Below are positions 5,438 through 61,763 of a stretch of DNA of 64,000 nt, in pieces. Source of the stretch: Desulfofundulus kuznetsovii DSM 6115 (GTDB lineage: Bacteria > Bacillota > Desulfotomaculia > Desulfotomaculales > Desulfovirgulaceae); the NCBI RefSeq assembly GCF_000214705.1, contig NC_015573.1, positions 1,325,001 to 1,389,000 on the forward strand, read 5' to 3'. Each line of letters begins with the position of its first letter. The first letter of the stretch is position 1. The position numbers and the translations under genes were made by a program. The notes under the pieces are model-generated. The model was given only the letters and a program-made list of their open reading frames with translations, ran no database searches and was not told where the DNA came from.

Positions 5438-5454
5438 TTGAGGAGGTTTAAGGG

Positions 5455-37715: not shown

Positions 37716-38398
37716 GCGTCATTGAGGTGCTGATTGTCGAGGATGATCCCATGGTGGTGGAGGTAAACCGGGGTTTCGTCAATACCGTACCCGGTTTTAA
37801 GGTAGTGGGCGTAGCCCGTACGGGAAAGGAAGCGGTGCAGCTGGCGGCCCGGTTAAAACCCGCCCTGACCCTTTTGGATGTTTACCTGCCGGATATGAGC
37901 GGCTTGGCCGCCCTGCAGGAAATTCGCCGCCTGGGGTTGCCCACCGATGTATTGCTGGTAACGGCGGCCCAGGATGCGGAGACGATTCAAAACGCCTTCC
38001 GCTACGGGGCGGTGGATTACATCATCAAACCCTTCAAGTTCAGCCGTTTGAAGAGTGCTCTGGAGGGTTTCGCCCTTTTGTACAGCCGCTTAAACAAAGA
38101 AGGCCGGCTGGAGCAGGATGATATCGACCAGCTGGCCCGGGGAAGGGTGCCAGTGGTTATTGATGAAGAGGCAGAAGAGATGCCCAAGGGTTTAAACGGG
38201 GTAACCTTAAAGCAGGTTTTACTTTTGCTCATTAAAGACGGCGGGGCCCTGTCGGCCGAGGAGGTGGCCGTCGCCCTGGGCCTGGCCAGGGTGACGGCCC
38301 GCCGGTATTTAGAATATTTGAGCCAGCTGGGCAAGGTGACGGTGGAATTGCAATACGGTTCGGTGGGACGTCCCATCAAAAGATATAAGATAGTTTAA
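37712..38398 (+). CDS. CitB/DcuR-type response regulator
   Basis: Partner of the preceding kinase. The receiver domain has EDDPMVVEVNR, phospho-acceptor Asp56 in LLDVYLPDMSG, the switch Thr in VTAAQD and the conserved Lys in IKPFKFSRL. The C-terminal part (about 160-228) is a winged-helix-like domain (LSAEEVAVALGLARVTARRYLEYLSQLGKV), standard for this family, not a sigma-54 activator. GTG at 37712 overlaps the kinase stop by 4 bp and follows AGGGGGTGA. Likely activates dctP transcription downstream. Confidence 0.92.
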   Translation: MSVIEVLIVEDDPMVVEVNRGFVNTVPGFKVVGVARTGKEAVQLAARLKPALTLLDVYLPDMSGLAALQEIRRLGLPTDVLLVTAAQDAETIQNAFRYGAVDYIIKPFKFSRLKSALEGFALLYSRLNKEGRLEQDDIDQLARGRVPVVIDEEAEEMPKGLNGVTLKQVLLLLIKDGGALSAEEVAVALGLARVTARRYLEYLSQLGKVTVELQYGSVGRPIKRYKIV

Positions 38399-41749: not shown

Positions 41750-42778
41750 ATGAAAAAGGTATGGCAAATCCTTCTGGTGGGTCTTTTAGCCCTGGGCCTG
41801 GCGCTTACCGCTTCCGGTTGTGGCGGAGAAAAGAAGAGCTCCCAGGGGACCGGGGAGAAGAAACCCATTGTAGTTAAATTTTCCCACGTAGTGGCTGAAA
41901 CCACACCCAAGGGACAGGCGGCCTTAAAATTCAAAGAATTACTGGAGACCAAATCCAACGGTGAGTTCAAGGTGGAGGTTTTCCCTTCCTCCCAGCTTTA
42001 CGGTGACAAGGAAGAGCTGGAGGCCTTGATGGCTAACAACGTGCAGCTCATTGCCCCTTCGGCGACCAAGCTGGTGGGGTTCAACCCGGCCTTCCAGCTG
42101 GTGGATATGCCTTTCCTGTTTGAGAGCGATGAAGCTGCCTACAAGTTCTACGACGGGGAATACGGCCAGAAGCTGCTGCATTCCCTGGAGCCCCATGGCA
42201 TGCTGGGACTGGCCTGGTGGCCCAACGGTTCCAAGCACTTCACCAACAGCAAGCGGCCTTTAAAGAGACCGGAGGACTTCAAGGGTTTGAAGTTCCGCAC
42301 CCAAACCGGCGGTGTGCTGGATGAGCAGTTTAAGGCTTTAGGTGCCGGTTCCCAGACCCTGGCCTTTGGTGAAGTGTATGTGGCCCTGCAAAATGGGACT
42401 GTGGACGGTCAGGAAAACACCTTCAACAACATAGAGACCCAGAAGTATGCCGAGGTACAGAAATACATGACCGTCTCCGGCCATGGTCGTATTGACTACG
42501 TGGTTCTGACCAACACCACCTTCTGGAACAGCCTGACCGATGAACAGAAGAAGCTCTTTGTGGAATGCATGAAAGAGGCTACCGACTTTGAGCGCCAGCT
42601 GTGTGATGAACTGAACCAGAAAAGCTTTGAGAACCTGAAGAACAGCGGCAAGCTTCAAATCTATACCCTGACCGAGGAAGACCGCAAGGCCTTTGTCGAA
42701 GCCATGAAGCCGGTGTATGACAAGTATACCGATAAGATCGGTAAGGAGTACATTGAAGCGGCCCGGAATACTAAATAA
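41750..42778 (+). CDS. dctP: TRAP transporter solute-binding lipoprotein (DctP family)
   Basis: Binds the carboxylate outside the membrane and delivers it to DctQM. Signal peptide with lipobox TASGC (Cys at about residue 24). Landmarks: KFSHVVAETTPKGQAALKF, DFKGLKFRT with the conserved carboxylate-binding Arg, FGEVYVALQNGTVDGQENT. Clearly paralogous to the dctP at 38567 (shared TNSKRPL and VVLTN.TFW segments). ATG behind AAGGAGGTCG. A strong terminator follows before dctQ, which would keep binding protein in excess over permease. Confidence 0.95.
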   Translation: MKKVWQILLVGLLALGLALTASGCGGEKKSSQGTGEKKPIVVKFSHVVAETTPKGQAALKFKELLETKSNGEFKVEVFPSSQLYGDKEELEALMANNVQLIAPSATKLVGFNPAFQLVDMPFLFESDEAAYKFYDGEYGQKLLHSLEPHGMLGLAWWPNGSKHFTNSKRPLKRPEDFKGLKFRTQTGGVLDEQFKALGAGSQTLAFGEVYVALQNGTVDGQENTFNNIETQKYAEVQKYMTVSGHGRIDYVVLTNTTFWNSLTDEQKKLFVECMKEATDFERQLCDELNQKSFENLKNSGKLQIYTLTEEDRKAFVEAMKPVYDKYTDKIGKEYIEAARNTK

Positions 42779-42895: not shown

Positions 42896-43405
42896 GTGGA
42901 GCGATTCAAGAAAGCTTATGCGGCCTTTGAGGACTACTTTACTGGAGGTCTTTTGTTTACCGGGCTGACACTGGTCTTTGTCAACGTCCTGTTGCGTTAT
43001 ATTTGGGGGCGCCCCCAGTCCCTCCTGGATGAGTTTTCCATTTATTTCGTGGTATGGGGGACTTTATGCGGTATTGCCGTGGCTTTGAGGAACGACCACC
43101 ATATCAAAGTGGAGATGTTCTTCAGGCTGCTGCCCCTGGGGGTCCGGCACAAGGTGAGCATTGTGGCCCATTTAATCGGGGTGGGTTTTGCCCTGTTTTA
43201 CACCTTTTACGGGTACCAGCTGGTACATACTTACATCATTTCCGGGCAACGTTCAACCGACAGCCAGTTTCCCTTATGGATTGTCAACCTGGTTATGCCC
43301 GTCAGTGGGGTAATGTTTACCGTCCGTTTTATAGAGAAACTTTTATTTCATTTTAAAAATGGCGGAAAAGACTGGTTAGCTGCCCAGAGTAGACGCCCAG
43401 ACTAA
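42896..43405 (+). CDS. dctQ: TRAP transporter small permease subunit
   Basis: Four-helix membrane subunit joining the binding protein to DctM. Helices at about 15-35 (GGLLFTGLTLVFVNVLLRYIW), 45-65, 85-108 and 125-150; the family pattern LLRYIWGRPQSLLDEFSIYFVVW and ALRNDHHIKVEMFFRLLP is clear. 169 residues, GTG start after GAGGGGGGT. Na+-driven import, not ATP-driven, is the family's mechanism. Confidence 0.92.
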   Translation: MERFKKAYAAFEDYFTGGLLFTGLTLVFVNVLLRYIWGRPQSLLDEFSIYFVVWGTLCGIAVALRNDHHIKVEMFFRLLPLGVRHKVSIVAHLIGVGFALFYTFYGYQLVHTYIISGQRSTDSQFPLWIVNLVMPVSGVMFTVRFIEKLLFHFKNGGKDWLAAQSRRPD

Positions 43406-43435
43406 AAAGAATGAATATGGAAAGGAGTGCCGCCG

Positions 43436-44719
43436 ATGGAAACGGCGTTGCTGTTTTGTATATTCGTGCTGCTCTTCCTGATCAACGTGCCCGTTGCCAT
43501 CAGCCTGGCGGTAGCTGCCCTAATCGTTTTAGCTACCACCACCGACTTTACCATGTACATGATCGTCCAGCGCATGTTTGCCTCCCTCTTATCCCCGCCT
43601 CTCATGGCCATTCCGGCCTTTGTCTTTGCCGGAGTGCTCATGTCCCACGGGGGTATTGCCAGGTACCTCATTGCCGCCCTGCGCAGCTGGTTCGGCCACC
43701 TGCCTGGAGGTCTGTCGGTGGTTACCATTCTGGCCTGCGCCATCTTTGCCGCCATTTCCGGTTCCAGCCCGGCTACGGCTGCGGCCATCGGTGCCATTAT
43801 GCTTCCGGCGATGATTGAAGGGGGTTACGATAAGCGTTACGCCATGGGCCTTATTGCCGCCTCGGGTACCCTGGGTATTCTCGTCCCGCCCAGTGTGACC
43901 ATGGTGGTTTACGGGATAGTGGCTGAGGAATCTATTGGCAAACTTTTCATGGGCGGGCTGCTGCCCGGTCTTTTCCTGGCCGGCATGCTGGTTGTCTTTG
44001 CCATCATTTATGCCCGAGTTAAAGGTTACGGAGCTGGTGAACCGGCTTCATGGCGGGAGCGCTGGACGGCCACCATCAAGGCCCTGCCCGGCGCCTTTTT
44101 ACCGATCTTCATTTTGGGAAGTATTTATTTGGGTATAGTTACCCCCACTGAGGCAGCAGTGCTTTCCGTATTTTATACCATCATCGTTTCCGCTTTTATT
44201 TACCGGGAGTTAAAGCTACCGGACATTCGTAAAGTATTCCGGGAGGCCATCAATATCTCTTCAATGATCTACCTGATTATTGCCGCTGCCATGGTTTTCG
44301 GCCTGTTCCTGACCTCAGAACAGGTGCCCAATAAGATAGCCGAATGGATTGCCGACAGCCACCTGAACCGTTATGCCTTCTTTTTTGCCACCAACCTGAT
44401 GTTCTTCATCATGGGCACTTTCCTGGAGGCCGTTTCCATTACCCTGATTACCCTGCCCCTGCTGCTGCCCATCATCAAGGCGCTGAACATCGACCTGATC
44501 CAGTTTGCCGTGGTCATGACGGTGAATATGGAGCTGGCCATGATTACCCCGCCGGTGGGCCTGAACCTCTTTGTGGTTTCGGCCATGGCTAAAGCGCGGG
44601 TCGAAGAGGTAATCAGGGGCGTGCTGCCCTTTATCTTAATTCTCATTGCCGGACTGGTTATCTTTATCTTCTGGCCTGATATTTCCCTGTACATTCCCCG
44701 GGTGCTGATGGAACGTTAA
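43436..44719 (+). CDS. dctM: TRAP transporter large permease subunit
   Basis: Elevator-type transport subunit with about 12 membrane segments and two re-entrant hairpins. Landmarks: [73 protein letters not shown], and [14 protein letters not shown] at 43436 is 8 bp from AAAGGAG; an in-frame GTG at 43427 overlaps that site. Length of 427 is standard. Followed 19 bp later by the sigma-54 activator gene, implying regulator and transporter are co-expressed. Confidence 0.95.
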
Positions 44720-44738: not shown

Positions 44739-46439
44739 ATGGACGGCTTGTTTGAAACCCTTTGTACCGCTCTTGGTATGATTGCCCGGCTGGCCGGTGG
44801 CTATGCCACGGTTATTGATCTGTGCAGTGGCAACACCAAAACCGTGGATGCCTCGGGCCAGGAGGTTCCCCATTACCCCCTGGAAAACTATGAGGGTCTG
44901 GAAGAGGCCCGGCAAAGCAGTGGTCCCCTGCTGTTTCCTTCCCGCAGGGAAGAAGGGGTACTGCATTTCTTCCTGCCCCTGGAGGGTTGCCTTCTGGCAG
45001 TAAACAATTTGCTGCGTGCCCGCCGGGAGGCCGGTTTAAAGGCAACCTTCCGGGAGGCCCTCCCTTTGATTGCCCGGGTGGCCGGGGGCGAGGCGGTGCT
45101 CTTTGACCGCCAGGGGATGCGCTTTTTCAGCGTGGGGTCGGATGGAAAGGAATCGGTCAGGGGGATGGGGGAATTTACCTACCTGGGCAGGCAGGCCATG
45201 GAACTGGGGCGGCCGGTAATCGGGCCGTCCCTGCTGGAGGAGGGGGCCATGGCCGTGCGTATTCCGATCACTGCGGAGTTTGGCATGGGTTTTAACAATG
45301 TCCTGGCGGTAAAACAAAAGAAAATGCTGGCTGCTTCCCACCGGCAGGGCTACCCCCGCTATACCTTTGCCCATATCATTGGTACCAGCCGGGCCATCCA
45401 GCAATGTATCCGGCAGGCCCGCCAGGTGGCTGTAACCAACTCCACGGTATTGCTCTACGGCGAAACGGGTACCGGAAAGGAACTCTTTGCCCAGTCCATT
45501 CACAATGCCAGCCAGCGGTCCGGCGGCCCCTTTGTGGCCATAAACTGTGGGGCCATTCCGGCCAGCCTGGTGGAGAGCCAGCTATTCGGTTATGAAGCCG
45601 GGGCTTTTACCGGTGCCCGCAAGGAGGGCCAACCGGGGGTTTTTGAACAGGCTAACAGTGGTACCCTTTTCCTGGATGAGATTAGCGAAATGGAGCTGGA
45701 ACTGCAGTCCCGTTTATTGAGGGTACTGCAGGAACGGGAAGTGGTGCGCATTGGGGGAAAAAAACCTATCCCCGTGGATGTGCGGGTAATTGCTTCCACC
45801 AATAAGGACCTGTGGCAAATGGTAGTCAGCGGTAAATTCCGGCAGGACCTGTTTTACCGCCTCAATGTGGTGGATCTGCGCATTCCCCCTCTGCGGGAAA
45901 GGGTGGAAGATATTCCCCTGCTGGTACGGCACTTTATCAAACAGTTCCATGATACCTTCGGTACCTTTGTCCGGGACATCTCTGATGAGGCCCTGGCATG
46001 CCTCATGGGTTACGGCTGGCCGGGTAATGTAAGGGAATTGCAGAACTGCATTGAAAGAACCATGAACCTGGCCACTCATGAAGTGATCCAGCCGGCGGAT
46101 CTTCCCGCCTTTATTCGCAACTGCTCCTGTCGGCTGCCGGAAAACACAGCAACAGCTACCCAATCCGGACAAATCGTACCGGTATATTCCTTTGCAAAAT
46201 TGAATTCCCAGGGGCATCTGCCAAAGACCGATCACGATGGATCTTTTTTTAAAACACCAAGTTTTTGCGTGTTGAAAGGAACTACCCAGGCCGTAGAACG
46301 GTCAACCATCCTGCGGGTACTGGAAGAAACGGGTTACAACCGCCGGCGAACTGCTGAGAAGCTGGGTATCAGCACCACCACTTTGTGGCGCAAGATGAAG
46401 AGACTCGGGCTGCTGTCAGGGTCGACAACGGGTTCTTAA
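44739..46439 (+). CDS. Sigma-54-dependent transcriptional activator
   Basis: Enhancer-binding protein. Residues 1-205 form a sensor region without a motif I can name (possibly GAF-like); no receiver domain. The AAA+ core starts near 210 ([19 protein letters not shown]) with Walker A GETGTGKE (from Gly241), the sigma-54 contact loop GAFTGA (about 288), Walker B TLFLDEIS and [21 protein letters not shown] Fis-type HTH ends the protein ([27 protein letters not shown]). Lies between a TRAP transporter and a gene block with a -24/-12 promoter, so it very likely activates that block in response to an imported acid. Confidence 0.93.
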
Positions 46440-46671: not shown

Positions 46672-47574
46672 ATGGAAAAGCCGCTACGCAGTTTTCTCTT
46701 TGCTCCCGCCAGCGACTTGCGCAAGGTAGACAAGGCCTTGTCCCTTGATGCCGATGCGGTGATCCTGGACCTGGAAGATGCCGTGGCGGTGTCCGAAAAG
46801 GTACGGGCACGGAGCCTGGTGCTGGATGTTCTTGGACGTATGAACCGCGAGGGTATTTACGTGCGGGTGAACGGGGTCAACACCCGCTGGATTGTGGGTG
46901 ACCTGATGGCGGTGGTGGGGGGCCGGCCGGCGGGCATCATGCTGCCCAAGGCTGAAGATGCCGAAGAAGTCAGGCGGGTGGACTGGCTCATTGGCCAGCT
47001 GGAAAGGGAATACGGCTTGCCGGCCGGCGAGATGGAACTCATTCCCCTGGTGGAAACGGCCCGGGGGGTGATGAATGCCTATGAGGTGGCCACCAGCTGC
47101 CCGCGGGTAAAGCGGCTGGCTTTCGGGGCCGTGGATTACACCCTGGACATCGGCATATCGCTGACCGGTCAGGGTACGGAGATCTTTTATGCCCGCTCCC
47201 ATCTGGTGGTGGCCAGCCGGGCGGCCGGCATTGAAGGACCCATCGATACAGTTTACCCCAACATTAAAGATGAGGAAGGGCTGGCAGAGGAATGCCGCCT
47301 GGTGCGCAGTCTGGGCTTTGCCGGTAAGCTGGTGATCCACCCGGCGCAACTGGGACCCGTAAACGAAATCTTTTCTCCCACGCCCAGGGAAATTGATTAT
47401 GCGGCTAAAGTGGCACAGGCCTTTGCACAGGCCGAAGCTGAAGGCATTGCGGCAGTGCAGCTGGAGGGTAAGTTTATTGATTACCCCGTGGCAGCCTGGG
47501 CCAGGCGGACGCTGGCCATTGCCCGGGCTTTAGGTCTGGCGGGGGAAAAAGGGTCGGAAGAACAAAGAGTTTGA
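46672..47574 (+). CDS. CitE-like acyl-CoA lyase (HpcH/HpaI superfamily)
   Basis: TIM-barrel, Mg-dependent C-C lyase of the CitE branch, whose members cleave citryl-, malyl-, citramalyl- or methylmalyl-CoA. Landmarks: RSFLFAPAS, ILDLEDAV (metal-linked Glu35-Asp36), VRVNG with substrate Arg, PLVETARGV with metal-binding Glu, FGAVDYTLDIG, and GIEGPIDTVYPNIKDEEGL. CitD and CitF are absent, so this is a free CoA-ester lyase, not a citrate lyase subunit. First gene behind a -24/-12 promoter and directly before a SucCD-like ligase, which would supply its CoA ester. The specific substrate cannot be read from sequence. Confidence 0.85.
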   Translation: MEKPLRSFLFAPASDLRKVDKALSLDADAVILDLEDAVAVSEKVRARSLVLDVLGRMNREGIYVRVNGVNTRWIVGDLMAVVGGRPAGIMLPKAEDAEEVRRVDWLIGQLEREYGLPAGEMELIPLVETARGVMNAYEVATSCPRVKRLAFGAVDYTLDIGISLTGQGTEIFYARSHLVVASRAAGIEGPIDTVYPNIKDEEGLAEECRLVRSLGFAGKLVIHPAQLGPVNEIFSPTPREIDYAAKVAQAFAQAEAEGIAAVQLEGKFIDYPVAAWARRTLAIARALGLAGEKGSEEQRV

Positions 47575-47586
47575 GGGGGGAAAACA

Positions 47587-48813
47587 GTGGGTCGCCTGCT
47601 GGAACATCACAGCAAGCAGTTGTTCAAAGAGATGGGCATAGCGGTGCCCAGTTACGAGGTGGCCACCAGCGAAGACGAAGCTCAGGAGGCCGCCCGGCGT
47701 ATAGGTAAACCCGTGGTCATTAAGGCGCTGGTGCCCGTGGGCAAACGGGGTAAGGCCGGAGCTATTAAATTTGCCGACACGCCACAGGAAGCAGCTTTAA
47801 GGGCCGGGGAGTTGCTGGGCATCACGGTGCGGCATTTCCCCGTGGAAAAGGTCCTGGTGGAAGAAAAACTGGACGTGGCCCAGGAATGGTACCTTTCCAT
47901 TACCTACGATAAGAACAAACAGTTGCCGGTGATCATCGCCAGCACCAGGGGCGGGGTGGATGTGGAGGAATTGAGCCGTTCCTACCCGGCCGAGATGGTT
48001 ATTCACCAGGTGGACCCCTTTGAAGGCCTGCCCGGCTTTCGGGCCAGAGAGATCTGGGCGGACCTTGGGGTAGGGGGCAAACTGCTGGGTGCCGCAGGGG
48101 CGCTGTTAAGCAAACTCTATGCCACCTTTGACCGTTATGATGCCTATCTTTTGGAGGTCAACCCGCTGGTGGTAACCACCGGGGGAGAACTGGTAGCCGC
48201 GGCGGCGGTGATGAGCGTGGATGATAGCGCCATGTACCGCCAGCCCCGTCTTGCGGACATGGTCCAGCTGGGCAGTGAACGTGCCTGGCGTCCCCTTACG
48301 GAACTGGAAAAGAAAATGGTGGAAGTAAATGAATCCGACCCCTACCGGGGTACGGCCCGCTATACCGAGATGCCCGGCGGTGATATTGGATTCATGTGCG
48401 GGGGTGGTGGCGGCAGCCTCCTGTGCTTTGATACCCTGGTGTCCCTGGGGGGGCGGCCGGCCAATTATTCAGAAGTAGGGGGTAACCCGCCCGAAGCAAA
48501 GGTATACGGCCTGACCAAAGGAATCCTTTCCAAACCTGGAGTGAAAGGGTTATTTGTCGCCCATAACATTACCAATAATACCCAGGTGGATGTGCTGGCC
48601 CGGGGGATAATCCGGGCGTTAAAAGATCTAAACATTGATCCGGTTACCTTCCCGGTGGTGGTGCGGGAAGCCGGAGTCAATGATGCCGTAGCCCGGGAGC
48701 TCTTTACGGCAGCCGGGGTGGAGTATTACGGTGATGAGGTAACTCTCACCGAGGCATGTGCCCGGATGGTGGCCCGGATGAAGGAAGTTTACGGGGAAGG
48801 GGGACGGCCATAA
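47587..48813 (+). CDS. SucC-like acyl-CoA ligase beta subunit (divergent)
   Basis: ATP-grasp subunit forming a CoA thioester from a carboxylic acid with the following alpha subunit. The N-terminal ATP-grasp part is clear (GRLLEHHSKQLFKEMGI, KRGKAGAIKFADTPQEA, EVNPLV). The C-terminal nucleotide/CoA domain departs from true succinyl-CoA synthetase: where the mmc-cluster copy has ANGAGITMG this protein has CGGGGGSLL (Cys271 to about 279), and GGG-T replaces in the next loop. 408 residues, GTG start behind GGGGGG. The lyase gene upstream suggests the product is a 3-hydroxy-dicarboxyl- or tricarboxyl-CoA, for example malyl-, citramalyl-, citryl- or itaconyl-CoA. Confidence 0.8.
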   Translation: MGRLLEHHSKQLFKEMGIAVPSYEVATSEDEAQEAARRIGKPVVIKALVPVGKRGKAGAIKFADTPQEAALRAGELLGITVRHFPVEKVLVEEKLDVAQEWYLSITYDKNKQLPVIIASTRGGVDVEELSRSYPAEMVIHQVDPFEGLPGFRAREIWADLGVGGKLLGAAGALLSKLYATFDRYDAYLLEVNPLVVTTGGELVAAAAVMSVDDSAMYRQPRLADMVQLGSERAWRPLTELEKKMVEVNESDPYRGTARYTEMPGGDIGFMCGGGGGSLLCFDTLVSLGGRPANYSEVGGNPPEAKVYGLTKGILSKPGVKGLFVAHNITNNTQVDVLARGIIRALKDLNIDPVTFPVVVREAGVNDAVARELFTAAGVEYYGDEVTLTEACARMVARMKEVYGEGGRP

Positions 48814-49710
48814 ATGGGCATTCTTATTGATCGCCATTCCCGCATTGTGATTCAGGGGATCACCGGCCGGGAGGCCAGTATGGTCACCAGGCACACCCTG
48901 GCCTACGGTACCCGTATTGTGGCCGGGGTGACACCGGGGAAGGGTGGGCAGGAGGTCCACGGCGTACCGGTGTACGATACCTTAAAGGCGGCTTGCCGGG
49001 AACATCAACCGGATACGTCCTTGATCTACGTCCCTCCTGCCTTTGTTTACGATGCCGTGGCTGAAGCGGTGGCCAACGGGATCAAGCTGATTCTTATTCC
49101 CACCGAAAACGTCCCGCAAAAGGATGCGGTAAAATTCTTAAATCTGGCCCGTCGGGCCGGGGTGCGGGTGATCGGCCCCAATTCCGTGGGCATGATCAAT
49201 CCCGGCGAACGGGTGAAATTGGGGGCCATTGGGGGAGATAATGTGGAGCGCTGCTTTGTGCCCGGCCCGGTGGGAGTGATTTCCAGAAGCGGTGGGATGA
49301 CTGCCGAAACCTCTTGGATGATCAAGCGTGCCGGTTACGGGGTGAGCACCAGTGTTAGCATTGGCGGGGATGCCCTTATTGGTAGTACCATTAAAGACCT
49401 GCTGGCTCTTTTTGAAGCCGACCCACAGACTCGCGCCGTGGTCGTTTTTTCCGAACCGGGTACTTCCCAGGAGGAGGAAGCGGCAGCCTTCATCCAGGAA
49501 AGAGGATTTACCAAGCCGCTAATTGCTTACATTGCCGGCCGCTTTACGGAGGACATGCCCGAAGGGACTGTTTTTGGACACGCGGCAGCCCTGATTTCCG
49601 GCAATTACGGTCGTCCTTCCATCAAGGCTGCCAGGTTGAGGGAAGCCGGTGCCCATGTGCTGGATAATTTTGATGACCTGATTCCCACTCTAAAACAGAT
49701 CCTGGGGTAA
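48814..49710 (+). CDS. SucD-like acyl-CoA ligase alpha subunit
   Basis: CoA-binding and phosphohistidine subunit partnering the preceding gene. N-terminal Rossmann CoA-binding domain ([35 protein letters not shown]), IGPNSVGMINPGERVKLG, SRSGGMTAE, SIGGDALIGST. The phospho-His lies in FGHAAALISG, where ordinary SucD has [11 protein letters not shown] immediately follows the beta-subunit stop. Less similar to the mmc-cluster SucD than expected for a duplicate, consistent with a different acid substrate. Confidence 0.83.
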   Translation: MGILIDRHSRIVIQGITGREASMVTRHTLAYGTRIVAGVTPGKGGQEVHGVPVYDTLKAACREHQPDTSLIYVPPAFVYDAVAEAVANGIKLILIPTENVPQKDAVKFLNLARRAGVRVIGPNSVGMINPGERVKLGAIGGDNVERCFVPGPVGVISRSGGMTAETSWMIKRAGYGVSTSVSIGGDALIGSTIKDLLALFEADPQTRAVVVFSEPGTSQEEEAAAFIQERGFTKPLIAYIAGRFTEDMPEGTVFGHAAALISGNYGRPSIKAARLREAGAHVLDNFDDLIPTLKQILG

Positions 49711-49750: not shown

Positions 49751-51157
49751 ATGTTATCCCACCGGCTGGCCGACTTTATTGGCCAGATCCAATATGATAT
49801 GCTTCCCGCGACCACAGTGCATATGGCCAGGCTGGCTTTCCTGGACTGGCTGGGTTCGGCTGCGGCCGGCGGTCAGCAGGCACCTGCTCAAAAGGTCCAG
49901 GCGGTTGTAAAGCAGCAGGGGGGCTCTCCCCAGGCCACCCTGCTGGCGACCGGGGAGAAGATCTCCTGCCTCAATGCGGCCCTGGCCAACGGCATTGCCT
50001 CCCATATCATGGAACTGGATGATGTGCACCGGGCCGCCATCATCCATGCCGGGGCGGCAGTGATACCGGCTGCCCTGGCCGTGGCGGAGATGATCAGGGC
50101 GAGCGGCCGCCAGTTGTTGGAGGCCATTGTGGTGGGTTATGAAGTGGCCATCCGGGTTGGCGAGGCCGTTACCCCGTCACACTATTACTTCTGGCACACC
50201 ACCGGTACCTGCGGTACCTTTGGTGCGGCGGCTGCGGCCGGAAAGCTTTTGGGTTTAAATAAAGAACAGCTGGTCTGGGCCCTGGGCAATGCCGGTACCC
50301 AGGCTGCCGGATTGTGGGAATTTCTGGTCGACGGGGCCATGTCCAAACACCTCCACCCGGGTAAGGCCGCCCAGAATGGCGTGCTGGCCGCTTTGCTGGC
50401 CAGAGAAGGTTTTACTGGAGCCATGCGTATTCTAGAAGGGGAAAGGGGGTTCTGCCGGGCTACGGCTCCCCAGTTTGACCTGAGTAAAATTACCGCCGGC
50501 CTGGGCAAACCTCCCTACAAAGTGGAAGAAAACTCCTTTAAAATCCATGCCTCCTGCCGTCATACCCATCCGGCGGTGGATGTAGTCCTGGAGCTGGCTA
50601 CTCGCTATGGTCTTAAACCAGCTGATATAGCTACTATCACCGTCCGTACATACCGCACGGCCCTGGACATTACCGCCAATCACCAGCCGACCACGGTTTA
50701 TGCGGCCAAGTTCAGCCTGCCCTTCTGTGTGGCCCTGGCCCTGAAAACCGGACATTGTGGTCCAGAGGACTTTACCCCGGCCAATCTTTTTGATCCGGAA
50801 ATTCGGGAACTGATGTCCCGGGTAACCCTGGTGATGGACGAGGAGCTTGACGCCCTCCATCCTGCCCGCTGGCCGGCAGTGGTGGAGATAAGCACTCCGT
50901 CCGGCCAGGCATACCGGGGACGGATGGATTTTCCCCGGGGCGACCCGGAAAATCCGGTTACTGCCGAAGAACTGGTGACCAAGTTCCATGCTCTGGCTGC
51001 CGGACCCTGGGGAGAACAGAGGTCGCGGGTTCTGGCGCAGGCGGTTCTGGATCTGGAGAACGTGGTAGATGTGGCCGATTTGTTCCAGGTACTTTCGCCA
51101 AACCACTATGGGAGGGTATGGCACTCCTCCTGCGGAATAACACAGCACGAAAGGTGA
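49751..51157 (+). CDS. MmgE/PrpD-family protein
   Basis: Family that includes 2-methylcitrate dehydratase (PrpD), cis-aconitate decarboxylase and iminodisuccinate epimerase. Landmarks: FLDWLGSAAAGG, NAALANGIASHIMELDDVHR, HAGAAVIPAALAVAE, VVGYEVAIRVGEAV, HTTGTCGTFGAAAAAGKLLGL, KHLHPGKAAQNGVLAALLAREGFTGA (about 195-225) and SCRHTHPAVD. 468 residues is normal. Since reactions in the family differ (dehydration, decarboxylation, epimerisation) its role is open; next to a CoA ligase and CitE-like lyase, a tri- or dicarboxylate such as aconitate or methylcitrate is plausible. Confidence 0.85.
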   Translation: MLSHRLADFIGQIQYDMLPATTVHMARLAFLDWLGSAAAGGQQAPAQKVQAVVKQQGGSPQATLLATGEKISCLNAALANGIASHIMELDDVHRAAIIHAGAAVIPAALAVAEMIRASGRQLLEAIVVGYEVAIRVGEAVTPSHYYFWHTTGTCGTFGAAAAAGKLLGLNKEQLVWALGNAGTQAAGLWEFLVDGAMSKHLHPGKAAQNGVLAALLAREGFTGAMRILEGERGFCRATAPQFDLSKITAGLGKPPYKVEENSFKIHASCRHTHPAVDVVLELATRYGLKPADIATITVRTYRTALDITANHQPTTVYAAKFSLPFCVALALKTGHCGPEDFTPANLFDPEIRELMSRVTLVMDEELDALHPARWPAVVEISTPSGQAYRGRMDFPRGDPENPVTAEELVTKFHALAAGPWGEQRSRVLAQAVLDLENVVDVADLFQVLSPNHYGRVWHSSCGITQHER

Positions 51158-51193: not shown

Positions 51194-52411
51194 ATGAAAG
51201 GTTCCTTTACTGAATTGCAAAACCGGGTTATCCAGCGGGGGCTGTGTACTGCCTGTGGAACTTGCGCCGGGGTGTGCCCGGCAGGGGCCATCGGCTGGGC
51301 TTATGTGGATGACGAACCACTGCCTGAATTAACCGGGGAATGTGCCGGCTGCAATATCTGTACCACCGTCTGCCCCGGGGAAGAGGTGAACTTACCTGCC
51401 CTGGAACAGTTTGTTTTTGGCCGGGTTAGGGAAGAACAGATTCCCGACCTGGGTTTTTACCGGGAAGCCCGAGTTGGCTGGGCCACTGACCGGGTCACCA
51501 GGCAACTGGGTGCCAGCGGGGGATTGGTTACGGCCCTGCTGATTTATGCCCTGGAAAAGGGCATTATCGATGGCGCGCTGGTAGCCGGTTTCCGGCAGGA
51601 TCTGCCCTGGCGTACCGAGGCCAGGCTGGCGGTTAATGGTGAGCAACTCCTGGCCGCTGCCAGGAGCAAATATGCCTGTGTACCGGTAAACACCCTTTTA
51701 AACCAGGCTCTGGAACAGGGTTACCGGCGCCTGGCGGTGGTGGGCTTGCCCTGTCATATCCACGGCTTGCGCAAGATGCAGTTTTACGGTCAGCCCGCTT
51801 CCCTGACCCGGGGCGTGGTGCTGATGGTGGGGCTTTTCTGCGCTTCCCAGTTTTATTTTGAGGGTACCCGCCACCTGCTGGTAGAACGTCTGGGGGTAGA
51901 TAGACTGGAAGATATTGCCTCGCTGAGCTACCGGGGCGGCGATTGGCCTGGCCACCTGGTGGTGGAACTGAAGGACGGGCGGAGGCTGCTCCTGGACCGC
52001 CACGAGTATATGTACCACCATCTCATGCCTGCTTTCAAACGGGATCGCTGCGAGATGTGCGTGGATTGGGCTGCGGAACTGGCTGACCTCTCGGTAGGTG
52101 ACTACTGGGACCCGCAGGTGCGGGCCGGGCATGCTTTAGGAACATCTTCCTGCCTGGTGCGCAGTCCAGCTGGTGAAGAGCTGCTGGATGGGGCCGTGAA
52201 AAACGGCTATGTGGAAACAATTCCCCTGGAAGCTGCCCGCCTGGCCGCCGGGATAGGGTACGAGCTAAAAAAGCACGCGGCAGCCTTCCGGTTAAGGCAG
52301 CGGCGTCGTTTTGGCTGGCCCGTACCTGAGTATCATCGCCAGACCAATTATACCCCATTCGCCCGGGAACTGCATCTGGCTCCGGAAACAAAAAGCGACG
52401 TTGAAAAGTAA
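51194..52411 (+). CDS. FrhB/FdhB-like iron-sulfur flavoprotein with N-terminal 2x[4Fe-4S] domain
   Basis: Belongs to the coenzyme F420 hydrogenase/dehydrogenase beta-subunit family. Residues 18-70 hold two [4Fe-4S] motifs (CTACGTCAGVCP and CAGCNICTTVCP); the FrhB N- and C-domains follow (GASGGLVTALLIYALEKG, VGLPCHIHGLRKMQ, RCEMCVDWAAELADLSVGDYWD). Such proteins bind FAD and move electrons between ferredoxin, F420 or NAD(P)H and partner enzymes. Its place just before the SdhA/SdhB-like pair suggests it is their electron-transfer partner, in lieu of a membrane anchor; this is inference. Confidence 0.85.
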   Translation: MKGSFTELQNRVIQRGLCTACGTCAGVCPAGAIGWAYVDDEPLPELTGECAGCNICTTVCPGEEVNLPALEQFVFGRVREEQIPDLGFYREARVGWATDRVTRQLGASGGLVTALLIYALEKGIIDGALVAGFRQDLPWRTEARLAVNGEQLLAAARSKYACVPVNTLLNQALEQGYRRLAVVGLPCHIHGLRKMQFYGQPASLTRGVVLMVGLFCASQFYFEGTRHLLVERLGVDRLEDIASLSYRGGDWPGHLVVELKDGRRLLLDRHEYMYHHLMPAFKRDRCEMCVDWAAELADLSVGDYWDPQVRAGHALGTSSCLVRSPAGEELLDGAVKNGYVETIPLEAARLAAGIGYELKKHAAAFRLRQRRRFGWPVPEYHRQTNYTPFARELHLAPETKSDVEK

Positions 52412-52446
52412 GGGTGCAAAAGGATTTAAGGAGGTGCTTTGGAAGA

Positions 52447-54129
52447 ATGCTCATGCACGAAGTGCTGGTGGTGGGGGGCGGGCTGGCCGGCCTGATGGCT
52501 GCGCTGGTGGCCTCGCAAAAGGCCGATGTGGCCGTTTTGAGCAAGATCTATCCCACCCGTTCCCACAGCGGAGCGGCACAGGGAGGGTTTAACGCCGCCC
52601 TGGGGGAAGACGATAGTATCGAGTCCCACATCTTTGACACGGTCAAGGGGAGCGATTACCTGGGGGATCAAGATGCCGTCGAGGTACTTTGCAGTGAGGG
52701 ACCGGAAGTGATTTTAGAGCTGGAGAGGATGGGTGTGCCCTGGACCCGTACCCCCGAAGGCAGGGTGGCCCAGCGCTCCCTGGGTGGTGCCGGCTTTCCC
52801 CGGGCCTGCTTTGCCGCCGATTTCTCCGGCCATGTAGTCCTGCATACCCTTTTTGAACAGGTTCTCAGACGGGGAATTAAGATTTATCCAGAATGGCATC
52901 TGGTGGAATTACTGGTGGAAGACGGGCAGGTGGCCGGGGTGCTGGCCTATGACCTGGCCCGGGCCAGGTTGGAAGTAATCCGCAGTAAGGCGGTCATCCT
53001 GGCCACAGGTGGATACGGCCGGGCCTTCGCCAAAACCACCAATGCCCACGCCAACACGGGAGACGGGATGGCCATTGCTTACCGGGCGGGAGCAGTTCTT
53101 TCGGATATGGAGTTCGTCCAGTTCCATCCCACCACCTTGTACGGTACCAACATTCTTATTTCCGAAGCGGCCCGGGGAGAGGGCGGTTACCTGCGCAATT
53201 ATGACGGTGAACGGTTTATGGTTCATTACGCACCCCAGAAGATGGAACTGGCTCCCCGGGATGTGGTTTCCCGGGCCATTTTCAAGGAGATTAAGGAGGG
53301 GCGCGGATTTGAGGGACAGTACGTGCATCTGGATCTAACCCACCTGGGAGAGGCCCTGGTGGCGGAACGCCTGCCCCAGGTGCGGGATCTGGCCATCCGG
53401 TATGCCGGGGTGGATCCCGCCAGGGCACCCATGCCCATCGAACCGGCCCAGCACTACAGTATGGGCGGAGTACGCACCGATGTTTGGGGTATGACCAGTT
53501 TGCCCGGCCTTCTGGCCGCAGGCGAGGTGGCCAATGTAAGCGTGCACGGGGCCAATCGGCTGGGAGGCAATTCCCTGCTGGAGACGGTGGTTTTTGGCCG
53601 GCGGGCTGGTCACCGGGCTGCCCAACTGGCCCGTCAGGAGCCCTGGCCAACCCTTTCTGCAGCAACCATAACCCGTGCTTATGAATCCTGGTCATCCCTG
53701 TTAGCCGGTCGGGGACAAGGGGTTCAGGAGGACAGCACTTTTGCCATCCGGCAGGAGATGACCAACCTGATGACCAACCAGGTTGGGGTATTCAGGGTGG
53801 GCAGTGAGCTGGAAGATGCGGTTAACCGGCTGGCTGTACTAAAAGAACGTTACCAAAGGCTTAAGGCCCCCGGTGGAATGCAACCCTTTAACTACGCCCT
53901 GATGGATTATCTTGAGGTAGGGTACCTTTTAGATTTGTGTGAAGTCATTGCCCGGGGGGCGTTACGCCGCACCGAGAGCCGGGGAGCCCATTACCGGCTT
54001 GACTATCCGCAGCGGGATGATCAGAACTGGCTGTGCCATACTTTTGTGCGCCGCGGGGAAGACGGACCGGAGTTCAGTAACGGTCCGGTGAAGATTACCC
54101 GTTATGCACCGCAGGAGAGGGGGTACTAG
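52447..54129 (+). CDS. Succinate dehydrogenase/fumarate reductase-type flavoprotein subunit
   Basis: FAD enzyme oxidising or reducing a dicarboxylate such as succinate/fumarate. FAD-binding VVGGGLAGLMAA; covalent-flavin His40 in SHSGAAQGGFNA; catalytic HPTTLYG, ARGEGGYLRN, RDVVSRAI, QHYSMGGVRTD and GANRLGGNSLLE all intact. The ATG at 52447 follows AAGGAGG at 12 bp. 560 residues, slightly shorter than SdhA. It overlaps functionally with the following iron-sulfur subunit gene, but no SdhC/SdhD anchor is present. Alternatives within the fold include methylsuccinate- or tricarballylate-type dehydrogenases. Confidence 0.88.
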   Translation: MLMHEVLVVGGGLAGLMAALVASQKADVAVLSKIYPTRSHSGAAQGGFNAALGEDDSIESHIFDTVKGSDYLGDQDAVEVLCSEGPEVILELERMGVPWTRTPEGRVAQRSLGGAGFPRACFAADFSGHVVLHTLFEQVLRRGIKIYPEWHLVELLVEDGQVAGVLAYDLARARLEVIRSKAVILATGGYGRAFAKTTNAHANTGDGMAIAYRAGAVLSDMEFVQFHPTTLYGTNILISEAARGEGGYLRNYDGERFMVHYAPQKMELAPRDVVSRAIFKEIKEGRGFEGQYVHLDLTHLGEALVAERLPQVRDLAIRYAGVDPARAPMPIEPAQHYSMGGVRTDVWGMTSLPGLLAAGEVANVSVHGANRLGGNSLLETVVFGRRAGHRAAQLARQEPWPTLSAATITRAYESWSSLLAGRGQGVQEDSTFAIRQEMTNLMTNQVGVFRVGSELEDAVNRLAVLKERYQRLKAPGGMQPFNYALMDYLEVGYLLDLCEVIARGALRRTESRGAHYRLDYPQRDDQNWLCHTFVRRGEDGPEFSNGPVKITRYAPQERGY

Positions 54130-54131
54130 GA

Positions 54132-54785
54132 ATGAACGTGGTGTTAAACATCTGCCGCTTTAACCCCGGAGTGGATGCAAAACCCTACTTTCAAGAATTT
54201 ACCGTGTTGGTGGAAGAGCATAACACGGTGCTGGATGCCCTGCTGCAGGCCTGGCAGCAGGATCCCGGGTTATCCTTTCGCCGCTCCTGCCGCAGCGCCA
54301 TTTGTGGTTCCTGTGCCCTTTGTATCAACGGGCGTCCCGGCCTGGCCTGCCAGACCCTGATTCGTAACGCCATAACTGAGGGCGGACGCATTACCCTGGA
54401 GCCACTACCCCATTTCAGACAGCTGAAAGACCTGGTGGTGGATCTGGACCCCTTCTTTGAATCTCTTAAAGCAGTAGTTCCCTGGGTGGTTATCCGGGAC
54501 AATCACGACGGTCGCATGGCGCCGGAGGTGGCACGGAAACTGGAAAGCCCGGCTACCTGCATTCTCTGTGGGGTTTGTCACGCAGCCATGGACGATCCCG
54601 GAGAAGTAAAACCGGCGGCCGTGGTGAAGGGTTTGCGGCTGGCCCTGGATCCCCGGGATGCCCTGGGTGCCGCCCGCCTGCAGTTAATGAAGGTACCTCG
54701 TGACATTTTAAGGCTATTTATTAAAAATTTACCTGAGAAATGTCCCAAAGGAATCACGGTGCCTGAGGACGTATGCCATTTATAA
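54132..54785 (+). CDS. SdhB/FrdB-like iron-sulfur subunit lacking the 3Fe-4S site
   Basis: 217 residues. The N-terminal [2Fe-2S] ligands are complete: Cys53, Cys58, Cys61 and Cys73, with spacing identical to Escherichia coli SdhB. The [4Fe-4S] ligands are also complete: Cys143, Cys146, Cys149 (CILCGVC) and Cys204 (KCPKGI). All three [3Fe-4S] ligands of ordinary SdhB are replaced: Met153, Arg194 and Leu200 stand at the expected places. The 3Fe-4S centre normally hands electrons to quinone, so this subunit probably passes electrons to a soluble partner. No membrane anchor gene follows, only a hairpin. ATG two bases after the flavoprotein stop. Confidence 0.85.
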   Translation: MNVVLNICRFNPGVDAKPYFQEFTVLVEEHNTVLDALLQAWQQDPGLSFRRSCRSAICGSCALCINGRPGLACQTLIRNAITEGGRITLEPLPHFRQLKDLVVDLDPFFESLKAVVPWVVIRDNHDGRMAPEVARKLESPATCILCGVCHAAMDDPGEVKPAAVVKGLRLALDPRDALGAARLQLMKVPRDILRLFIKNLPEKCPKGITVPEDVCHL

Positions 54786-54846: not shown

Positions 54847-55488
54847 ATGATGAGCAGGTGTGCAGAATGTGGAATTTATGCTTGCTACACGGGACAGATG
54901 GGAAAGATTCCGGAGCACTGTCCCATGAAATCCGAAAGCAGCGTTTATGAGGAAGCCAGAAAGGAGTACCAGGAACCGGGCGTATTTAATCTAGCTCTTA
55001 ACTCGGCCTTAACTGAATCTGCCGGTTACCGCAGATGGACCAGGCTGGAGGAAATCATCCAGTTCAGCCGCATGGCCGGCTTTACCAGATTGGGCCTGGC
55101 CTTCTGCGCTGGGTTGCGCAAAGAAGCAGCCGAGGTAGCAAAGATTTTCAAGCAGGCAGGATTTGTTGTCGAATCGGTAATGTGCAAGACCGGTTCTACG
55201 CCCAAAGAGTTTTTAGGTATACGGGACGAACAAAAGGTCCGCCCCGGTCAATTTGAACCCATGTGCAATCCCATCGCGCAGGCGTACATATTGAACCGGG
55301 CCGGGACGGAATTGAACGTTTTATTGGGCCTTTGTGTCGGTCACGATAGTTTATTCATCAAATATTCGGCAGCTCCGGTCACCGTTCTGGCAGTCAAGGA
55401 CAGGGTGCTGGCCCATAATCCCCTGGGAGCCGTTTACGCTGCCCATTATTATACCCCGAAGCTGGCAGCTTACAAAAAGTCAGATTAA
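54847..55488 (+). CDS. DUF1847 metal-binding-like protein
   Basis: Conserved protein of anaerobes, function unknown. The N-terminus has CAECGIYACYTG and a following CPM, giving four to five Cys typical of DUF1847; later residues include GFTRLGLAFCAGLRKEA, VVESVMCKTGSTPKE, MCNPIAQAYILN and LCVGHDSLFIKYS, i.e. further conserved Cys and a His-Asp. No signal peptide or membrane helix. It follows the hairpin by 22 bp with AAAGGAAGTGAG as ribosome site; the second ATG at 54850 is an alternative start. Whether it belongs to the upstream operon is uncertain. Confidence 0.8.
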   Translation: MMSRCAECGIYACYTGQMGKIPEHCPMKSESSVYEEARKEYQEPGVFNLALNSALTESAGYRRWTRLEEIIQFSRMAGFTRLGLAFCAGLRKEAAEVAKIFKQAGFVVESVMCKTGSTPKEFLGIRDEQKVRPGQFEPMCNPIAQAYILNRAGTELNVLLGLCVGHDSLFIKYSAAPVTVLAVKDRVLAHNPLGAVYAAHYYTPKLAAYKKSD

Positions 55489-58197: not shown

Positions 58198-58243
58198 CAT
58201 GTGAAATAGTTGCTCAGTAAAGGTGGAAGGGGGGAAAGGCTTT

Positions 58244-59086
58244 TTGCGCCTTGTAGACGCTGCTACCATTACAGCCACGGTAGCCGAATTATGCCAGAAA
58301 GCAAACTACGAGCTGGGTGAAGATGTACTGGAGGCATTCAAAGAGGCCCTGGATCAGGAAATTTCCCTCACGGGCAGGGATGTCCTGCAACAGTTGCTGG
58401 AAAATGCCCGTATTGCCCGGGAGGAGCAGGTCCCCATGTGCCAGGACACCGGTTTTGCCGTTGTTTTTCTGGAAGTGGGGCAGGAAGTGGTCATTACCGG
58501 GGGGGACCTGTACGAGGCAGTAAACGAAGGGGTGCGCCGGGGTTACCAGGAGGGTTACCTGCGTAAATCCATCGTTGATCACCCCCTGCGCCGCAAAAAT
58601 ACGGGGGATAATACGCCGGCGGTGATTCACACCCGCATTGTCCCCGGTGATAAACTAAAGATCATTGTTGCTCCCAAGGGGGGCGGCAGTGAGAACATGA
58701 GCGGCCTGCGCATGCTTAAGCCGGCTGAAGGGGTGGAGGGGGTTAAAAAGTTTGTCATCGAGCAGGTAAGAGCAGCCGGCCCCAATCCCTGTCCGCCCGT
58801 GGTGGTGGGTGTGGGTATTGGGGGCACCTTTGAAAAGGCCGCCTTGCTGGCCAAGGAAGCTCTCCTGCGCCCGTTGGGACAACCCCATCCTGATACCGAG
58901 ATTGCCTGCCTGGAAAGGGAGCTTTTGGAGGCCATTAATAATCTGGGCATCGGGCCCCAGGGCCTGGGCGGTCGCACCACTGCTCTGGCGGTGCACGTGG
59001 AAGTCTTCCCGTGCCATATAGCGAGCTTGCCGGTGGCAGTAAACATTAACTGCCATGCCAGCCGGCACAAAGAAGCAATACTCTAA
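58244..59086 (+). CDS. mmcB: Fumarate hydratase class I, alpha (N-terminal) subunit
   Basis: Iron-sulfur fumarase catalysing fumarate + H2O to malate, in two-subunit form. Landmarks: CQDTGFAVVFLEVGQEV with the first cluster Cys, HPLRRKNTGDNTPAVIHT, KGGGSENMS, GIGGTFEKAALLAKEALLRP, and ALAVHVEVFPCHIASLPVAVNINCHASRH with two further cluster Cys (PCHIASLP, NCH). TTG at 58244 gives MRLVDAATITATVAEL, in line with relatives; a GTG at 58223 lies in the ribosome site region. 280 residues. Partner is the next gene. Confidence 0.92.
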   Translation: MRLVDAATITATVAELCQKANYELGEDVLEAFKEALDQEISLTGRDVLQQLLENARIAREEQVPMCQDTGFAVVFLEVGQEVVITGGDLYEAVNEGVRRGYQEGYLRKSIVDHPLRRKNTGDNTPAVIHTRIVPGDKLKIIVAPKGGGSENMSGLRMLKPAEGVEGVKKFVIEQVRAAGPNPCPPVVVGVGIGGTFEKAALLAKEALLRPLGQPHPDTEIACLERELLEAINNLGIGPQGLGGRTTALAVHVEVFPCHIASLPVAVNINCHASRHKEAIL

Positions 59087-59115
59087 CGCGGGTATTGTGT
59101 AGGAGGTAGAAAAAT

Positions 59116-59670
59116 TTGCTCCAGATCAGGTTGACAACCCCGCTTACCGATGAGGTGGTAGAGAAGCTGCGCATTGGTCAGCGGGTTTTGTTAAACGGTA
59201 TACTCTATACGGCCCGGGATGCGGCCCATAAAAAAATGGTGGAGTTGCTGGACCGGGGGGAAGAGCTGCCCATTCCCATCAAGGGACAGGTTATTTACTA
59301 CGTGGGACCTTCGCCGGCTAAACCCGGGCGAGTAATAGGTTCGGCTGGTCCTACCACCAGTGGCCGGATGGACCCCTATGCGCCGCGCTTAATTGCCCTG
59401 GGTTTGAAGGGTATGATTGGCAAGGGGAAACGCTCTCCGGAAGTAATTAAAGCCATGAAGCAATACAAGGCTGTTTATTTTGCTGCCGTGGGAGGTGCAG
59501 CAGCATTGCTGGCCCGGGCCATCAAATCATGCCGGGTAGTGGCTTATCCGGAACTGGGTCCGGAGGCTATCCACGAGCTGGTGGTGGAGGACTTTCCGGT
59601 AATTGTGGTTAATGATATTCTGGGCGGCGATTTGTACGAAGAAGGAGTCAAAATTTATGCCGGCCGGTAA
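59116..59670 (+). CDS. mmcC: Fumarate hydratase class I, beta (C-terminal) subunit
   Basis: Completes the class I fumarase. The 184-residue protein has the C-terminal-domain signature: LTTPLTDEVVEKLRIGQRVLLNGILYTARDAAHKK, YYVGPSPAKPGRVIGSAGPTTSGRMD, KGMIGKGKRS and the active-site strand AVYFAAVGGAAALLA with EAIHELVVEDFPVIVVND. TTG start 8 bp after AGGAGGTAG. Together with mmcB it sits between succinate/fumarate and malate in the methylmalonyl-CoA route. Confidence 0.93.
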   Translation: MLQIRLTTPLTDEVVEKLRIGQRVLLNGILYTARDAAHKKMVELLDRGEELPIPIKGQVIYYVGPSPAKPGRVIGSAGPTTSGRMDPYAPRLIALGLKGMIGKGKRSPEVIKAMKQYKAVYFAAVGGAAALLARAIKSCRVVAYPELGPEAIHELVVEDFPVIVVNDILGGDLYEEGVKIYAGR

Positions 59671-60864: not shown

Positions 60865-60896
60865 AGGCACCCTCGATAAGGAAGGAGCGGTCAGGA

Positions 60897-61763
60897 GTGG
60901 CCATTATAGTTGATGAAAAAACCAATGTTCTGGTTCAGGGGATAACGGGTAACCAGGGCACGTTTCATACCAAGCAGATGCTGGCCTATGGAACACGGAT
61001 TGTCGCCGGGGTTTCCCCAGGCAAGGGCGGCCAGAAGGTGGAAGGGGTTCCCGTGTATGATACCGTGGCTGCGGCCATGGAAAACCATCAAATTGATGCC
61101 TCCGTGCTTTTCATTCCGGCTCCCTTTGCCAAAGATGCCGCTTTTGAAGCCATTGCCGCCGGGGTGCGGGTTGTGGTCATTATTACCGAGCATATTCCCG
61201 TCCATGATGAACTGGAGATCATTGCTTTTGCCCGGCGACGGGGCACAATAGTGATTGGCCCTAATACCTTTGGGATTGTTTCCTCGGGACGGTGCAAAAT
61301 TGGCATTCCACCCAATCAGTTCTTCGTGCCGGGCCACATTGGTGTAGTGGCGCGCAGCGGCACCCTGACCTACGAGATCGTGGCCAATCTAACAGCCAAC
61401 GGTTTAGGACAGTCGACGGTGGTCGGACTGGGTGGTGACCGGGTGGTTGGTTTGTCCTTTGTGGATGTTTTGGAGAAATTCGAAAAGGATCCGGAAACCA
61501 GGGCCGTGGTGCTGGTAGGTGAAATTGGGGGGAATGCGGAGGAAGAGGCTTCCCTGTTCATCAAGAAAATGACCAAGCCCGTGGTGGCCTATATTGCCGG
61601 GAAGAGCGCTCCTCCCGGAAAACGCATGGGCCATGCCGGGGCAATCATTGAGCGGGGGAAGGGTACCTTTGAGGGCAAGGTACAGGCACTGACGGCTGCC
61701 GGTGCCCGGGTGGCTACCCTGCCTTTCGAGGTACCCGGGTTGATTAAGGAAGCTCTAGGCTGA
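60897..61763 (+). CDS. sucD: Succinyl-CoA synthetase alpha subunit
   Basis: CoA-binding, phosphohistidine subunit (mmcE of Pelotomaculum). Landmarks: [75 protein letters not shown] and [13 protein letters not shown] with the phospho-His. 288 residues, GTG start behind GGAGCGGTCAGGA, 32 bp after sucC. Confidence 0.93.

Follow-up and report, generated by a model that had tools for sequence, protein, structure and literature searches.

It has been proposed that the FrhB-SdhA-SdhB proteins of Pelotomaculum thermopropionicum (SDH2, PTH_1490-1492) form a cytoplasmic NADH-linked fumarate reductase fed through FrhB, the NADH-oxidising subunit being unidentified in the relevant passages of this 2023 account (PMC10308238). 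In the activity measurements described there, NADH:fumarate activity was 35.7 mU/mg in soluble fractions and 5.7 mU/mg in membranes, and the substrate assayed was fumarate, not methylsuccinate (PMC10308238). The main text of that paper makes no mention of the term 3Fe-4S (PMC10308238). In Syntrophobacter fumaroxidans, the sections of a 2012 report that concern sdhAB-1 (Sfum_0172-0174) describe it as lacking a membrane anchor and both the [4Fe-4S] and the [3Fe-4S] cluster, and call it 'not a conventional Sdh or Frd' (PMC3570798). A further precedent is the itaconate/methylsuccinate cluster of the Pseudomonadota, in which, according to the sections of the source on these enzymes, MmgE/PrpD proteins are (S)-(R)-methylsuccinate isomerases with named residues and without activity on mesaconate or the other acids tested (PMC12290011). 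The same sections describe dehydrogenation of the CoA ester by an acyl-CoA dehydrogenase, the use of a CoA transferase, and hydration of mesaconate by class I fumarases (PMC12290011).

Here we analyse a stretch of 64,000 nucleotides (the window) from Desulfofundulus kuznetsovii DSM 6115, whose genome is a single contig of 3,601,386 bases (NC_015573.1, of which the window is positions 1,325,001 to 1,389,000). We propose, at slightly under an even chance (roughly 0.47), that the SdhAB proteins encoded in it are a soluble, quinone-independent relative of SDH/FRD that acts on methylsuccinate/mesaconate in a branched C5-dicarboxylate operon and is wired to soluble carriers. An earlier note on this DNA had drawn attention to the SdhB-like subunit, but had overlooked the transporter, the lyase, the CoA ligase and the MmgE/PrpD protein of the same operon (Table 1).

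Table 1. Features of the operon and of nearby genes, in window coordinates.
Feature	Coordinates	Strand	Basis
sCache-PAS sensor kinase and DpiA-type response regulator, candidate dicarboxylate sensor	36078..38398	+	
TRAP solute-binding protein DctP, C4-dicarboxylate type	41750..42778	+	
TRAP small permease DctQ	42896..43405	+	
TRAP large permease DctM	43427..44719	+	
Sigma-54-dependent regulator	44739..46439	+	
CitE-family lyase, candidate citramalyl-CoA lyase	46672..47574	+	
SucC-like CoA ligase beta (SucC1) with Citrate_bind domain, candidate citramalate-CoA ligase	47587..48813	+	
SucD-like CoA ligase alpha (SucD1)	48814..49710	+	
MmgE/PrpD, candidate (S)-(R)-methylsuccinate isomerase	49751..51157	+	
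FrhB/FdhB-type flavoprotein with 2x[4Fe-4S], candidate redox partner	51194..52411	+	
SdhA-like flavoprotein with the covalent-FAD His and the His/Arg of the substrate site retained and Leu in place of E. coli Phe119	52414..54129	+	
SdhB-like subunit with [2Fe-2S] and [4Fe-4S], without [3Fe-4S]	54132..54785	+	sequence, alignment, AlphaFold2 model
DUF1847 protein, directly after SdhB	54847..55488	+	Pfam
Class I two-subunit fumarase, candidate mesaconate hydratase; separate unit beyond lexA and a regulator	58223..59670	+	

The locus can be compared with each of the described systems in turn. The 3,025,375-base genome in our set (G094, locus L055), which we take to be P. thermopropionicum, shares with the window the FrhB-SdhA-SdhB order, orthology, an anchor-free set and an upstream MmgE, but unlike the window has no CitE/SucCD beside the set in the stretch read. 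Locus L155 (G530, 4,990,251 bases, at 209 kb), presumably Sfum_0172-0174 of S. fumaroxidans, matches the window at 66% for SdhB, 78% for SdhA and 66% for MmgE, and differs from it in the order SdhA-SdhB-MmgE and in having no FrhB, CitE or SucCD match in the stretch; in contrast to the published description, its SdhB keeps the [4Fe-4S] C..C..C motif and the distal C-P. Canonical complex II (SQR/QFR) has the same SdhA and SdhB folds, FAD site, [2Fe-2S] and [4Fe-4S], whereas the window set lacks [3Fe-4S], has a shorter loop and tail, and is encoded in an anchor-free operon. The type E (SdhABEF) and TfrAB enzymes differ in their CCG-domain subunit, which is absent from the five operon proteins scanned (no match at E up to 0.001 in SdhB, SdhA, FrhB, DUF1847 or MmgE) and is not fused to SdhB. 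With the Pseudomonadota cluster the window shares an MmgE/PrpD protein of isomerase type, a CitE-family lyase and what would be CoA activation of a C5 dicarboxylate, and in it SdhAB and a SucCD-type ligase would take the place of the acyl-CoA dehydrogenase and the CoA transferase, respectively (PMC12290011).

The 217-residue product of the open reading frame at 54132-54785, for which the coordinates and translation given previously were both correct, matched Fer2_3 in the domain scan and, of the SdhB/FrdB models listed, exceeded the cut-off of one, the subfamily model TIGR00384, and stayed under it for the rest. An AlphaFold2 model built from 40 sequences, comprising orthologues and 20 canonical rows, had a mean pLDDT of 88.7; the canonical rows were added after a model from 20 orthologues alone was poor (pLDDT 64). 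This model superposed on 2wp9_B (Z 22.7, rmsd 2.5, 216 residues) and on E. coli SdhB, 1nek_B (Z 22.5, rmsd 2.5, 216 residues), the latter over its whole length (Foldseek E 1.4e-18, TM 0.85), and as modelled the protein has the complex-II SdhB fold of a ferredoxin domain followed by a helical Fe-S domain. Cys53, 58, 61 and 73 and Cys143, 146, 149 and 204 align with cluster ligands, while none of the three [3Fe-4S] positions is Cys. The eight had been said to match E. coli SdhB, and all are indeed present and aligned, except that the third [2Fe-2S] position, Cys in FrdB, is Asp63 in E. coli SdhB. The lost ligands had been named as Met153, Arg194 and Leu200; none is Cys, but MAFFT gives Met153, Leu195 and Leu200, the second being Leu195 or Arg194 depending on gap placement because the window SdhB lacks one residue ahead of the last motif. 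Whichever placement is used, there is no Cys in residues 150-203. Other cysteines at the [3Fe-4S] site were considered and rejected, as none is conserved in the alignment of the 22 clade rows: the C-terminal domain has four conserved Cys, with a fifth or sixth in only 8 of the 22.

All 22 full-length orthologues keep the eight ligands and have lost the three [3Fe-4S] cysteines, whereas all three are kept in 21 of 21 canonical SdhB rows, several of which were covered only to about 250 residues. The alignment with SdhB homologues that the earlier note had called for supports its claim that the quinone-proximal cluster is absent, and the triple loss (in none of the canonical rows) is, on this alignment, a property of the clade and beyond chance. 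Within the window's order (113 genomes) the clade orthologues are 54-98% identical. Beyond it they occur in a Syntrophobacteraceae MAG (L045) and in two further genomes of that MAG's order (39 genomes). The L045 SdhAB (SdhB at 5054-5701, on an 8.3 kb contig) grouped with the L155 and L156 rows (99/97), and is therefore probably real rather than misbinned. Other SdhBs were about 42% identical or less to the window SdhB over most of its length. A sample of 398 genomes of the phylum (E up to 1e-40, at most seven candidates per genome being scored) yielded 28 fetched rows outside the clade, all with full motifs as judged by eye, and a plasmid search with SdhB (150 records) gave best rows of about 38% identity. 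In the SdhB tree a single branch (support 100/99) separates the clade from the other rows, and so one loss suffices.

The clade SdhB is under purifying selection, with dN/dS of 0.04-0.25 among the pairs whose dS was below 1.5 (43 of 78 pairs, from 13 of the 22 rows). The earlier statement that the ligand loss was 'not decay' stands as far as the eight retained ligands and this selection are concerned, but 3 of 23 loci look broken or misassembled: G002 has remnants, G022 a deletion in SdhA and G103 a truncated SdhA. In G002, a genome of the same genus (L066, L084), SdhA is missing and FrhB and SdhB are in fragments, which points to locus decay or misassembly; these fragments were kept out of the alignments and the 22 rows, were included in the 23 loci (22 full-length and this remnant) used for neighbourhood counts, and were scored as SdhB- and FrhB-bearing in the co-occurrence table. 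We note that the SdhA frame of G087 (L058, 5254-6813) is about 653 residues long, some 70 more than its relatives, the extra part preceding the last 39 residues.

As had been noted of SdhC and SdhD, there is no membrane anchor gene in the window's SdhAB operon. The same genome encodes two other SdhBs with full ligands, one beside two Sdh_cyt genes and the other beside a single larger one, and a search of the whole genome for an anchor elsewhere found three Sdh_cyt matches (E up to 0.001), all at these other two sdh loci. The tail beyond the last ligand is 6-18 residues long in clade SdhBs and at least 22 in canonical rows, and clade SdhBs have gaps where E. coli has W164 and H207. P160, S161, W164, H207 and I209 are, we assume, the quinone-site positions of E. 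coli SdhB; residues of this site were dropped as evidence, since the other such positions vary in canonical rows too. We infer from these sequences that SdhAB is quinone-independent and soluble in D. kuznetsovii, and it is likely that it functions in a soluble chain, as suggested previously.

Besides SdhA, the commonest neighbour of the clade SdhB across the 23 loci is MmgE/PrpD. At 17 of them it adjoins either SdhAB itself or the block FrhB-SdhAB, lying on the upstream side at 15 and on the downstream side at the other two, L155 and L156; this variation in position indicates that the link between MmgE and SdhAB has outlasted rearrangement. CitE and SucCD are found upstream in 10 of 23 and are absent beside SdhAB in the other 13, some of which are on short contigs. 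FrhB adjoins SdhA in only 7 of 23. The earlier note had taken FrhB adjacency as the context of the ligand loss and had suggested a search for the same triple loss next to frhB-like genes; the loss is present in every one of the 22 orthologues, but 16 of the 23 loci have no adjacent FrhB, and FrhB and DUF1847 occur without SdhAB in G001. In this genome of the same genus (L157, 8497-15684), FrhB, DUF1847 and one DctP-like gene are kept, and the genes running from the TRAP permeases through SdhB have, by eye, given way to apparent branched-chain ABC transporter genes. FrhB orthologues (70% or more identity) are encoded away from SdhAB in G085, G086 and G088 and, in broken form, in G095. Over the 113 genomes, both FrhB and clade SdhB were found in 12, SdhB only in 8, FrhB only in 2 and neither in 91 (Fisher 2e-9, ignoring kinship; FrhB at 70% or more identity, with fragments counted). 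In G085, G086 and G088, which are Pelotomaculum-type, an NADH:flavin oxidoreductase-type protein (Pfam, G085 copy) lies upstream of MmgE and is a possible other partner. The D. kuznetsovii genome has four FrhB-type genes by family scan. As regards F420, which may be a partner of FrhB, it has one F420_ligase match (30.7 bits, cut-off 25) and no CofD match at E up to 0.001, a search whose control matched in 6 of 14 genomes and exceeded the cut-off in 3. The FrhB adjacent to SdhA, with two [4Fe-4S] motifs of its own, is the best candidate partner in this genome, and would contact SdhB.

The window MmgE has H85, E88, H99, Y145, H149, K199 and K264, with spacing 3-11-46-4-50-65, compared with 3-11-46-4-50-64 in the P. 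aeruginosa isomerase and 3-11-46-5-48-68 in the IDS epimerase. Five of six intervals are thus equal to those of the isomerase and the sixth is off by one, whereas three differ from the epimerase. This catalytic pattern is present in all 18 MmgEs from clade loci (one of them, L160, from a clade genome only), but is not exclusive to them, being present also in the MmgEs of L181 and L182, which have no CitE/CoA-transferase cluster within 5 kb. The Tyr common to isomerase and epimerase is present in the window MmgE, and cis-aconitate decarboxylase (12vw), as aligned, lacks it. A tree was built from the 18 MmgEs and 17 further MmgE/PrpD rows, the plasmid matches being picked by similarity to the window protein and no assayed isomerase being among the rows. 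In it the 18 shared a group of 24 rows (96/93) with six plasmid MmgEs, of which three came from clusters complete for MaoC hydratase, acyl-CoA dehydrogenase, CoA transferase and CitE, and the other three from partial clusters. L178, the fourth row from a complete cluster, fell outside this group, and support for the 18 among themselves was only 75/45. On its residue pattern, the window MmgE is a candidate methylsuccinate isomerase.

In SdhA, the covalent-FAD His and the substrate-site His and Arg are kept, as are all the site residues tested except Phe119 and Thr254, the latter being Ser. Position 119, at which the Phe of E. coli SdhA presumably touches the substrate, is Leu in all 20 clade rows and, among 19 canonical rows, Phe in 14 and Met in 5, counted without rows missing that column and without a non-SdhA flavoprotein (the second match of L065, with Ser at 119). 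SucC1 contains a Citrate_bind domain (48 bits) that was not detected in the housekeeping SucC2 at E up to 1e-5. Its score was 192.7 bits to citryl-CoA synthetase and 151.8 bits to E. coli SucC, whereas for SucC2 the order was reversed (151.5 and 275 bits); the best SucC1 score was to a Thermus-type SucC (3ufx, 221.6 bits), and SucD1 showed no such shift (citryl-CoA synthetase 212.1 bits, E. coli SucD 217.2 bits). The two SucCD pairs of the window (47587-49710 and 59749-61763) lie 10 kb apart and differ in the C-terminal domain of SucC, which is Citrate_bind in one and Ligase_CoA in the other. The CitE-type protein matched the mitochondrial citrate lyase beta-like protein (2e-39) about as well as other acyl-CoA lyases, a comparison that does not tell these lyases apart. 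The DctP was closest to chains named as C4-dicarboxylate binders. A transposase-type gene (DDE_Tnp_1; 39846-41291, minus strand) lies between two DctP genes in the window, unlike in G003, G004, G005, G006 and G008, in which the two adjoin. The DUF1847 protein has an N-terminal Cys-rich stretch, accompanies several clade loci as well as FrhB in G001, and had no NCBIfam match; its Pfam entry is a family of unknown function.

In the pathway that we propose, methylsuccinate would be imported by the TRAP transporter, its stereoisomers interconverted by MmgE/PrpD, and methylsuccinate and mesaconate interconverted as free acids by SdhA. Mesaconate would then be hydrated to citramalate by the class I fumarase, citramalyl-CoA would be made by SucCD1, and this would be cleaved to pyruvate and acetyl-CoA by the CitE-type lyase. 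Electrons would run along SdhA FAD, [2Fe-2S] and [4Fe-4S], leaving or entering at the last of these via a soluble partner without the use of a [3Fe-4S] cluster. The substrate, direction and redox partner of SdhAB are predictions from the gene content. The succinate/fumarate potential is given as +30 mV in the relevant section of the S. fumaroxidans paper (PMC3570798), and by analogy the methylsuccinate/mesaconate couple should lie near it. With a couple near this value, oxidation of methylsuccinate onto a low-potential FrhB-type carrier would be uphill and reduction of mesaconate downhill; the presence of an isomerase, however, suggests that both stereoisomers are consumed, and thus oxidation. 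The potential therefore favours reduction, if FrhB uses low-potential carriers, and the isomerase favours oxidation, such that the direction could be either way.

Other explanations must be weighed against this pathway. It is conceivable, though on balance unlikely, that the set is a cytoplasmic fumarate reductase in which FrhB takes electrons from NADH or ferredoxin, directly or via another subunit, and SdhBA reduces fumarate to succinate, with MmgE and the lyase mere neighbours. This would be energetically downhill, it accords with an SdhA succinate/fumarate site kept save for the two substitutions described above and with the gene order of L055, and it is the published proposal for the orthologous SDH2 and its FrhB, although the soluble NADH:fumarate activity reported in that part of the paper came from soluble fractions and not from the purified gene product (PMC10308238). 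It also leaves unexplained MmgE, the citrate-binding domain of SucC1, the CitE lyase and the Phe119Leu change, and sits poorly with a neighbourhood in which MmgE is adjacent far more often than FrhB. We consider it improbable that the substrate is another substituted succinate, either tricarballylate, converted via aconitate, citrate and citryl-CoA to oxaloacetate and acetyl-CoA, or some alkylsuccinate. The citrate-binding domain and citryl-CoA synthetase score of SucC1 and the CitE family of the lyase would suit such a route, and there are MmgE/PrpD members that handle aconitate and methylcitrate, but the DctP resembles C4-dicarboxylate binders, and the MmgE has the Tyr that 12vw lacks, E. 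coli PrpD being too distant for safe alignment.

There is only a small chance that SdhAB binds a partner, in the membrane or reactive with quinone, whose gene lies elsewhere and which supplies the missing cluster, as has been proposed for the type E enzymes: the type E FrdB of S. fumaroxidans is described, in the section on that enzyme, as lacking [3Fe-4S], possibly compensated by FrdE/F (PMC3570798). In the window, however, a scan of five operon proteins found no CCG-domain or anchor protein, all three Sdh_cyt matches go with the other sdh sets, and SdhB has a short tail and lacks two loop positions. That the gene is a decaying paralogue without function could be argued from the broken loci of G002, G022 and G103, but is very improbable, being largely refuted by the selection data and by the retention of all eight ligands throughout the clade. 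Our preferred reading remains the soluble methylsuccinate/mesaconate enzyme. Its extension to a whole anaerobic methylsuccinate pathway across the window's order and the Syntrophobacterales, with dehydrogenation of the free acid (not the CoA ester) or mesaconate reduction by a soluble complex-II relative without the quinone-side cluster, on FrhB/ferredoxin-type carriers, is put forward more tentatively, as somewhat doubtful.

The absence of [3Fe-4S] from a presumed orthologue has been in print since 2012, and the general fact is as such partly known; the new elements are a function proposed from the operon and a corrected list of the clusters. In a literature search of open-licence PMC papers, we recognised neither a free-acid SdhAB-type methylsuccinate dehydrogenase nor a [3Fe-4S]-less SdhB beside MmgE among the matches listed. 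If our reading is true, complex II would have been made soluble by dropping a single cluster while the rest of the wire was kept. It would also give a testable function to the odd Sdh/FRD genes of syntrophic propionate oxidisers, and would add a further, anaerobic route of methylsuccinate metabolism.
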